Below, one piece after another: positions 19,723 through 21,249 of a stretch of DNA of 32,981 nt (position 1 is the stretch's first letter; each line of letters begins with the position of its first letter). Both the position numbers and the translations under genes were made by a program. The DNA is from an uncultured Collinsella sp. GTDB lineage: Bacteria; Actinomycetota; Coriobacteriia; Coriobacteriales; Coriobacteriaceae. The DNA is taken from positions 1-32,981 of the forward strand of contig CASEEV010000051.1 of assembly GCA_949287065.1 (NCBI GenBank). Direction: 5' to 3'. Under the pieces are notes generated by a model that saw only the letters and a list, made by a program, of their open reading frames with translations, searched no databases and had not been told where the DNA came from.

Positions 19723-20092
<370 letters not shown>

Positions 20093-20113
<21 letters not shown>

Positions 20114-20207
20114 CATGAATGCCTAAGCCCTGCAGCGATGCGGGGCTTTCTTCTTAGCAATCCACCCCCATGGGGAGTCGAACCCCGTTGGGGGCGCGAG
20201 CGTCAAG
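20093..20207 (+). repeat. Tandem repeat copy A: tRNA-Phe 3' end, terminator, inverted T-arm
   Basis: The unit consists of a 28-bp segment (20093-20120) with the last 21 nt of tRNA-Phe plus CATGAAT, a terminator, and a 41-bp segment (20167-20207). That segment contains GGGGAGTCGAACCCC, the reverse complement of the tRNA T-arm, and ends GGCGCGAGCGTCAAG. Copy B lies 189-190 bp downstream. Confidence 0.85.
20126..20156 (+). terminator. Terminator after tRNA-Phe
   Basis: AGCCCTGC pairs with GCGGGGCT (one G-T pair) around a 6-nt loop, followed by TTCTTCTT. Confidence 0.85.
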
Positions 20208-20280
20208 CGGATGCGGAGCATCCGCAGCGAGCGCGCGAGGGCGCAGCGCGCCCGAGCGTGCCGCCTGCCGCAAGGCAGGC
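20207..20280 (+). repeat. Hairpin-rich spacer between the two tRNA-tail copies
   Basis: Two perfect hairpins are visible: GCGGATGC-GGA-GCATCCGC (20207-20225) and GCCTGCC-GCAA-GGCAGGC (20263-20280, a GNRA-type loop). The GC-rich stretch between them (GGCGCAGCGCGCC) can also fold. No coding sense is seen. Confidence 0.7.
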
Positions 20281-20281
20281 G

Positions 20282-20397
20282 CGACTCCCCCTCTGGCCAC
20301 CACATGAATTGAGAAGCCCCGCTACCCGCGGGGCTTTTTATCTAGCAGCCCGACTCCCATGGGGAGTCGAACCCCGCTGGGGGGCGCGAGCGTCAAG
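20282..20397 (+). repeat. Tandem repeat copy B: tRNA-Phe 3' fragment, terminator, inverted T-arm
   Basis: 20282-20309 is identical over 28 bp to 20093-20120, including the tRNA CCA end but not the tRNA 5' part. It is followed by its own terminator and by 20356-20397, which matches 20167-20207 apart from one substitution and one inserted G. The pattern fits a tandem duplication or an att-like direct repeat flanking a degraded insertion in the tRNA 3' end. Confidence 0.85.
20315..20340 (+). terminator. Terminator in repeat copy B
   Basis: AGCCCCGC / GCGGGGCT, an 8-bp perfect stem with a 5-nt loop, followed by TTTTTA. Confidence 0.85.
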
Positions 20398-20555
20398 GAC
20401 ATCGGCCTTTGGGCAAAACCTGCGTCGATACGGGCGTCATGTGCTAAAACAAACATAGTACGGGCAGGCTGCGCAAAATCCCCGTCGATACGGGCATGCT
20501 GCGCAGAAACGCATCCGATACGGGCGAGCCTCGCAAAAACGAACGCGATACGGCT
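20396..20555 (-). repeat. Left arm of mirrored 30-bp repeat array
   Basis: CGATACGGGC-type cores recur at 20426, 20456 (TAGTACGGGC), 20486, 20516 and 20546 (CGATACGGCT): an exact 30-bp period. A degenerate unit is detectable at 20396. Most units also carry GCAAAA or GCAGAAA at the same phase. There are no unique CRISPR-like spacers. The same unit occurs in opposite orientation at 20670-20789. Confidence 0.9.
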
Positions 20556-20571
20556 GCCTCGCCTCTATCTT

Positions 20572-20601
20572 TTGGCACAATATTCCACATAACATAACAA
20601 T
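20572..20601 (+). promoter_or_regulatory. Possible promoter in AT-rich core between repeat arms
   Basis: TTGGCA (20572-20577) is followed after 17-18 bp by TAACAAT (20595-20601). It is weak at the -10, but lies in the only AT-rich stretch between the two repeat arms. Confidence 0.35.
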
Positions 20602-20606
20602 CTGAA

Positions 20607-20688
20607 GAGCAACTAGGCTCCACAGGCTGGACTGTTTGCCCGCAGAGCGGCGACAAGCCGTAACACCGCCCGTCTTGCGGGCCTTTTT
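20607..20688 (+). ncRNA. Candidate small RNA in core of mirrored array
   Basis: A transcript starting about 6 nt after the weak promoter would run some 80 nt and end at the hairpin GCCCG-TCTTG-CGGGC followed by CTTTTT (20668-20688). The segment has no ribosome site or convincing frame. The first right-arm repeat overlaps the terminator. Promoter and terminator are seen; the RNA itself is inferred. Confidence 0.3.
20668..20688 (+). terminator. Intrinsic terminator inside array core
   Basis: GCCCG / CGGGC stem, 5-nt loop, then C and five T. Confidence 0.65.
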
Positions 20689-20789
20689 GCGCAGCTGTCC
20701 CGTATCGAGGGTCGTTTTGCCCAGTCAGTCCGTATCGCAACACTTTTGGCGCAGTCCGTCCGTATCGTGGGCTGTTTTGCGCCGCCGAC
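20670..20789 (+). repeat. Right arm of mirrored 30-bp repeat array
   Basis: CCGTATCG at 20700, 20730 and 20760, with a degenerate CCGTCTTG at 20670: again an exact 30-bp period. Units share TTTTGCGC or TTTTGCCC at a constant offset. The sequence is the reverse complement of the left-arm unit, so both arms read outward from the core. The arm ends at the stop codon of the DUF192 gene. Confidence 0.9.
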
Positions 20790-20790
20790 G

Positions 20791-21249
20791 TCAGCGGCAG
20801 CCGAGGGTTACGACGCGGATGCGGGAGCCCACGGCAAACCACGGGGACTCGGACGAGACGCGCTCGAGCACGGCGCACGCGCGGGAGCAACGCACCATGC
20901 GGCCGGGCGGCAGGCGCCGAACGGTCTCGATCACGCGGTTGCGCTCGTCGACAAACGCCAGATCGATGGGCCGGCGCATGCCCCAGGTGTGCACCGACGA
21001 GCACGCCGGAAAGAGCAGGCAGTCGCAGAGGGGCGCCCTCTCGCGCCCGATGAGTCCGCGCAGCCTCGTCACAAAGCGCCGGGCGACAAGCACCGTCATC
21101 ACCCGCGACGCGCAGGCCACGAGCACCACGCGGTCGGCGCGCGGCGCAGCCGTATGCGGGCGCGGCGCGGGATGTATCCGCGAAATGCCGGACGAGGCGC
21201 CTCGCCCCGTCGGTGCGCCGTCAATGTGCGCTGCGGTCCCTCTCATCAT
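20791..21249 (-). CDS. DUF192 family protein at end of Tad operon
   Basis: A 152-residue protein whose second half shows the DUF192 pattern: ARRFVTRLRGLIGRERAP, CDCLLFPACSSVHTWGM, RPIDLAFVDERNRVIETV and SPWFAVGSRIRV. The family is uncharacterised but recurs at Tad pilus loci of actinobacteria. The first 55 residues are low-complexity Arg/Pro/Ala. ATG 21249 overlaps the stop of the upstream gene as ATGA. It is the last gene of the operon; the 30-bp repeat arm begins directly after its stop, and no strong terminator is seen there. Confidence 0.82.
   Translation of the reverse strand: MMRGTAAHIDGAPTGRGASSGISRIHPAPRPHTAAPRADRVVLVACASRVMTVLVARRFVTRLRGLIGRERAPLCDCLLFPACSSVHTWGMRRPIDLAFVDERNRVIETVRRLPPGRMVRCSRACAVLERVSSESPWFAVGSRIRVVTLGCR

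Follow-up and report, generated by a model that had tools for sequence, protein, structure and literature searches.

Mirrored rows of two-box sites form a dispersed intergenic element family in one uncultured genus of Coriobacteriaceae

What kind of element is built of two rows of 30-bp units that mirror each other around an AT-rich core, between a tRNA-Phe gene and a set of Tad genes? The locus lies in the window, i.e., the whole stretch of 32,981 nucleotides that was analysed (contig CASEEV010000051.1 of assembly GCA_949287065.1, an uncultured Collinsella sp.). From this single copy, the initial annotation described exact 30-bp repeats reading outward from a core of about 110 bp and offered three hypotheses, i.e., a multi-site protein-binding platform, a decayed gene for a repeat peptide, or a mobile repeat family, with a local accident as the fallback. 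A single copy cannot reveal that the family spans four species, that there is a core operator, that the arms are phased at 10.5 bp, or that the boxes change between species.

The mirrored array and its neighbours

The window array comprises 5 + 4 sites in two mirrored rows, and its 30-bp register is exact in both arms. Each site was framed as 26 bp, consisting of box 1 (TGCGCAAAA), a linker, and box 2 (CGATACGG). Scanned with a profile built only from other loci, the 33 kb of the window yield exactly these nine sites, at 22.9-32.7 bits, and nothing else of at least 12 bits, compared with an average of 0.35 such matches in shuffled windows. The features are the following, with site scores in bits.

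20038..20113, + strand: tRNA-Phe gene (ARAGORN), left neighbour, outside the element
20410..20435, + strand: left arm site 1, outermost (TGGGCAAAA...CGATACGGGC), 26.2 bits with the other-loci profile
20440..20465, + strand: left arm site 2, box 2 partly decayed (TAGTACGGGC at 20456), 22.9 bits
20470..20495, + strand: left arm site 3, 31.2 bits with the other-loci profile
20500..20525, + strand: left arm site 4, 32.7 bits with the other-loci profile
20530..20555, + strand: left arm site 5, innermost, terminal box CGATACGG at the core edge, 27.2 bits
20556..20667, no strand: core, 112 bp between sites, containing an AT-rich stretch; arm-to-arm distance 163 bp, in the 10.5-bp series
20578..20615, + strand: operator of the core, an imperfectly palindromic sequence at a distance of 22 bp from the left arm, motif present in 13 of 15 type A cores
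20668..20693, - strand: right arm site 1, innermost, decayed box 2 (CAAGACGG), 26.5 bits
20698..20723, - strand: right arm site 2, 28.5 bits with the other-loci profile
20728..20753, - strand: right arm site 3, 27.3 bits with the other-loci profile
20758..20783, - strand: outermost site of the right arm (site 4), separated by 8 bp from the DUF192 gene end at 20791, 26.3 bits
20791..21270, - strand: DUF192 gene (PF02643, E 5e-9), right neighbour, outside the element

The mirrored arms and their spacing, as first described, are thus recovered by an independent profile, the minus-strand sites of the right arm starting at 20693, 20723, 20753, and 20783. The unit coordinates given earlier also hold, but the repeats are not exact: despite the exact spacing, the units of the left arm are merely about 67-77% alike, and the boxes at 20456 and 20670 (the latter reading CCGTCTTG) are decayed. 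In both arms it is the CGATACGG box that lies innermost. The AT-rich segment ascribed to the core lies at 20576-20605 (GC 0.30), and the operator reads TCCACA-N13-TGAAGA, where the consensus is TCTACA-N13-TGTAGA. The neighbours had been named correctly as tRNA-Phe tail copies and a Tad operon; the DUF192 gene precedes the Tad genes (TadE, T2SSE ATPase, and RcpC).

The 3' end of tRNA-Phe and its terminator-like tail recur about 189 bp downstream (window 20093-20397, segments 88-94% identical). This duplication, which also occurs in the sister genome G001, has the appearance of a relic left by integration or slippage at the tRNA.

Copies, distribution and placement

Genomes of a single uncultured genus, g1, contain about 15-20 look-alike elements apiece, of which the window array is one. 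The window's own genome (G000, 2.08 Mb) carries at least 14 of them at unrelated intergenic spots, the further ones, at least 13, being located on contigs C12, C23, C26, C31, C37, C38, C49, C50, C60 (two), C65, C70, and C71, where one arm only was scored. About 20 arrays each were found in G002 and G003, while G001 is a fragmented assembly and is under-sampled; these three sister genomes are metagenome-assembled genomes (MAGs) of uncultured bacteria. The scored arrays and sites number 13 and 102 in G000, 19 and 230 in G002, and 17 and 111 in G003. The local-accident fallback is refuted by the look-alike arrays in these four species.

A search of relatives for the unit had been proposed at the outset. 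Sequence-model and pattern searches of 60 and 150 relatives confine the arrays to the four genomes of g1 and detected none in the 146 other relatives. In a scan of the genomes of 84,980 species, three g1 genomes matched, namely the uncultured Coriobacteriaceae MAGs CALUOB, CALUOP, and CALULH; the only match outside the genus, two weak same-direction sites without a mirror arm in a Clostridia bin (L110), was set aside. No matching array was present in 50,697 phage records, 72,556 plasmid records, or viral contigs. A 400-kb sample of two other genera contained no mirrored 30-bp array of the g1 kind, where about three would be expected at the density of G002. In G002 and G003, sites of at least 14 bits are nearly absent outside the arrays (2 in 70 kb of G002 and 1 in 64 kb of G003).

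The window array has a same-place counterpart in G001 (L052), with a left arm about 90% identical and a core and right arm that are much diverged. In G002 and G003, the tRNA-Phe/DUF192 interval exists without an array; in G002, other sequence fills it (L170, 832-1500). Across elements, the arms comprise 2-13 sites. Linkers are not common to different loci, and adjacent units within an arm resemble each other somewhat more closely, which fits local duplication of units.

The position relative to genes, a further check suggested from the single copy, was determined with a simple codon-usage gene finder built for the analysis. The arrays lie between genes, and the gene pairs around them are tandem in 36 cases, convergent in 10, and divergent in 5. 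Arrays also occur between genes that we take, by eye from their sequences, to be purF/purM and hypF/hypC, the neighbours being presumably housekeeping genes. The placement between genes is almost indiscriminate, so structural or selfish roles fit better than a particular regulon, and a strong transcription block is hard to accept. In a single long gap on contig C60 of G000 (L013), two complete arrays lie about 1.5 kb apart; its flanks are presumably a glucosamine-6-phosphate deaminase-like gene and an S9-like ribosomal protein gene, both named by eye.

Helical phasing, boxes and core operator

In general form, the element consists of one arm, in which asymmetric two-box sites (TGSGCRAAA-N9-ATACG) recur every 30 bp, then a core, and then a mirrored arm. 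The spacing within arms (spacings up to 62 bp) is exactly 30 bp in 335 of 367 cases; the deviant values are 25, 28, 29, 31, 32, 41, and 42 bp or doubles (59-62), and none of the 367 is 27 or 33. The distance between the innermost sites falls into classes of 68, 78-79, 109, 143, 151-153, 160-164, 172, 182-183, 193, and 205-206 bp among 54 elements in the four genomes, with one outlier at 175 bp. Its best-fitting period is 10.5 bp for G000 (R 0.93), 10.45 bp for G002 (0.80), and 10.5 bp for G003 (0.83). Some arrays are orthologous, and the counts per genome are therefore not fully independent; the safer test takes each distinct distance class once and still gives R 0.83, a value reached by 0 of 5000 random sets. 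The period equals one turn of B-DNA, so the arms keep a fixed rotational relation on double-stranded DNA; since 30 bp is about three turns, the sites within an arm all point to roughly the same side of the helix.

The box pair of G000 and of most G001 arrays (type A) is TGCGCAAAA-N7-CGATACGG, and that of G002 and G003 (type B) is TGGGCGARAA-N6-TCATACGA. The information per position is mostly 1-2 bits in the boxes, and in the linkers mostly 0.1-0.4 (type A) and partly up to 0.8-1.4 (type B). In orthologous arrays, the boxes change about half as much as the linkers (0.21 v 0.43 and 0.33 v 0.55). Two G001 arrays (L054 and L055) have CGATCCKGG as box 2, whereas CGATACGG takes this position in the G000 arrays next to the same genes (L016 and L048). 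One flanking gene is common to arrays L049 in G000, L137 in G002, and L163 in G003, which suggests that arrays may be rewritten in place.

A 38-bp motif, c.ATg.TCTACAtaA..aa..tatCtGTAGAG.AAatg, is common to 13 of 15 type A cores (G000 and G001). It forms the inverted repeat TCTACA-N13-TGTAGA and scores 479, against 223-237 in shuffled cores. The operator lies 21-22 bp from one arm, or 52 bp in one array with a longer core, and type A cores that deviate in length do so by 10 or 30 bp. It is found in either orientation, and the element is therefore polar, reading arm, 22 bp, operator, about 52 bp, arm. Eight G003 cores (L150, L151, L152, L154, L155, L156, L160, and L166) carry a CGCATTATGTGCTTATCGCA-type motif 26-29 bp from one arm that is unlike the type A operator, and in the G002 cores a strong single common motif was not found. 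Most type B arrays have an extra inverted half-site at one core edge, with box 2 in common with the innermost site; one type B array has it, weakly, at both edges, and it is absent in the type A arrays.

Known systems, rival readings and a proposed mechanism

Several described systems share part of this architecture. The REP/BIME elements, RIB/RIP among them, are dispersed extragenic mosaics of units in opposite orientation with an IHF-bound segment (BIME-1), are species-specific, and have a suggested chromosome-organising role (PMC2817692). The array family is likewise extragenic, multi-copy, and species-specific, and BIMEs are a precedent for a dispersed mosaic with a protein-bound centre, but the TGCGCAAAA-N7-CGATACGG unit is an asymmetric two-box site and not a palindrome, and the arms run head-to-tail and do not alternate. 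Besides the missing palindrome, the type A species have no cognate RAYT: the search for the RAYT domain (Y1_Tnp) gave 0 in G000 and G001 and 1 each in G002 and G003, where it also occurs in array-free relatives. The stoperators of cluster A mycobacteriophages are asymmetric sites read by a repressor monomer (that of L5) with two DNA-binding domains (PMC9283540), a precedent for such reading of an asymmetric site by one monomer. They block transcription in one orientation. They resemble the arrays in being many asymmetric sites in intergenic gaps, but they are single 13-bp sites, oriented with transcription in a phage genome, while the arrays are phased mirrored rows around an operator in a bacterial chromosome.

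Iteron origins and parC-like partition arrays combine helically phased direct repeats beside an AT-rich segment with an inverted dyad of the half-site. The arrays share the phased tandem repeats, the AT-rich segment, and the inverted half-site dyad, but differ in the mirrored arms, in their number of about 20 per chromosome, scattered over unrelated loci, and in that no initiator gene was found; a Rep_3-type initiator, the only type covered, was present in 0 of 15 genomes and matched in 2 controls. At the ends of Mu, Tn7, and IS21 and at phage attP, rows of bipartite sites are inverted between the two sides with a phased core. The arrays have such inverted rows and a phased core, but no fixed termini or target duplications, arms of variable length, and nothing carried between the arms, so the defined termini and target-site duplication of MITEs or transposon ends are lacking. 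CRISPR, dismissed already in the initial annotation, would have near-identical repeats with unique spacers of similar length, whereas here the units abut at 30 bp and differ among themselves, and the arms are inverted. Given these comparisons and a limited search of the open-access literature, in which no relevant account of Coriobacteriia or Collinsella repeats was found, the element appears to fall outside the described categories.

Site-specific recombination is the main rival, although we consider it unlikely that the arrays are the arm-type sites and inverted core site of a recombination or transposition machine and move or are exchanged as a unit. Integrase attachment sites and Mu/Tn7-like ends have arm-type sites with an inverted core site or multi-site ends, and the requirements of such complexes, namely bipartite sites in mirrored rows, constant distances from arm to core, and helical phase, are seen here. 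Moreover, elements are gained or lost between species, as at tRNA-Phe/DUF192 (present in G000/G001, absent in G002/G003), and the core operator, which occurs in both orientations, consists of inverted repeats flanking a variable centre. However, no conserved outer end was found, the outer 60 bp holding almost no information; direct repeats of 5-8 bp just outside the arrays exceed shuffled pairing by at most 1.7 sd; arms vary between 2 and 13 sites, and copies have no common linkers. Mu-transpos_C (PF09299), used to look for transposases of the TnsB/MuA/IstA type, has no match in the four genomes, nor in the controls, which makes the control a weak one. A mobile repeat family in the sense of the initial annotation is thus borne out as to dispersal and gain or loss between species, but not as to termini, target duplications, or shared linkers. 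It is more doubtful still that the arrays are decoys for immunity, i.e., copies of plasmid or phage operator or iteron sites titrating an initiator or repressor. The direct-repeat sites of type B with an inverted dyad of the same half-site resemble iteron/operator pairs, and the array sequences differ between species as the specificities of mobile elements do. Against this stand the lack of a matching array in the phage and plasmid records and viral contigs and of a Rep_3 initiator in the genomes, and mirrored arms and a phased core would be superfluous for a decoy.

Two further readings place the function in a transcript or a product, and both are improbable. As RNA, e.g., a two-way terminator or processing site, the mirrored arms of the intergenic elements would form a long, imperfectly paired stem (-191 kcal/mol, z -9.1), but the mirrored boxes alone account for this fold. 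The complementarity of linkers is no higher in mirrored units than in units from different loci (0.33 v 0.35, 0.40 v 0.38, and 0.45 v 0.43), permutation tests of cross-arm covariation were negative save 2 of 16 at p about 0.02, and a 10.5-bp quantisation of the core length is characteristic of B-DNA. The compensatory changes between paired arms expected of a structured RNA element were thus not found; in Rfam, no family reaches its gathering score for the array, the tRNA alone passes, and a sub-threshold match to Xoo8 (15.5 bits, cut-off 90) was rejected. Least probable is that the arrays encode, or once encoded, a peptide with a 10-residue repeat (R-I-x-x-V-F-A-Q in the outward direction). 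Of 108 arms, 104 have one open outward frame, but the conserved letters by themselves keep this frame open; the peptide R-[IM]-x-x-x-[FL]-A-Q persists through the box change between species, and the changes in the consensus boxes fall mostly at third positions of that frame. But information is about equal across the three codon positions, substitutions between orthologues have no clear third-position excess, and the spacing errors, ±1 and never ±3, break the frame, so neither a kept frame nor free third positions were found. Both strands would also have to code outward from every core, whose length follows 10.5 bp and not 3.

The quantisation at 10.5 bp, the ±1 errors, and the linkers that drift without cross-arm complementarity point instead to a protein assembly on double-stranded DNA. 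We hypothesize, with confidence that is about evenly balanced, that the arrays are a dispersed, polar, composite DNA element at which a sequence-specific protein assembles. The three initial hypotheses are thus supported in part: the multi-site platform is favoured by the helical phasing, the conserved boxes with drifting linkers, and the absent coding signal, the peptide gene is rejected, and the mobile family is right in some respects. The phased double-stranded-DNA geometry, the constraint on the two boxes, and the type A core operator at a fixed offset can be read from the sequences themselves. A protein carrying either two DNA-binding domains or a pair of linked modules might place one subunit on each site; the subunits would assemble along each arm, and the two filaments would meet across the looped core. 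The core palindrome may be bound by a second, dimeric protein or by the arm-binding protein itself. In the least certain step, the complex could act as a bridging or anchoring element of the chromosome, as a two-way roadblock insulating the neighbouring genes, or as both.

If the specificity of the trans-acting protein drifted and the sites followed, this would account for the box differences between sister species. It is conceivable, and we propose it only tentatively, that one or a few proteins reading the two-box site form phased mirrored filaments at about 20 chromosomal stations and shift their specificity rapidly between sister species, giving a species-specific code for scaffolding or insulation of the chromosome, as a bacterial counterpart of a fast-evolving DNA-recognition system. 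Sister species would then not share the sequences of a hundred or more sites per genome, as in type A, type B, and the mixed state of G001. Most of the dispersed repeats described in bacteria are palindromes or remains of transposons; in this family, the geometry follows the DNA helical repeat in four species, and the site sequences differ as a set between species. This raises, in one genus, the questions of what organises or insulates the chromosome and how a binding protein with a hundred sites changes its specificity. The presence of both CGATCCKGG and CGATACGG boxes within G001 is hard to explain simply by a single trans factor, and a second array type with a different unit in G002 also counts against the favoured reading.

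This second type (L201, 3945-4104; contig C3 of G002, about 83.9-84.1 kb) is a mirrored 30-bp array with the unit GTTCCGCATGCGTTTTGTATCAGCTGC in three copies plus inverted copies. In another genus of the family (G008), an inverted pair of CCCCGTCCCATTTTGA-like repeats (L195, 170-278) constitutes a different intergenic repeat.
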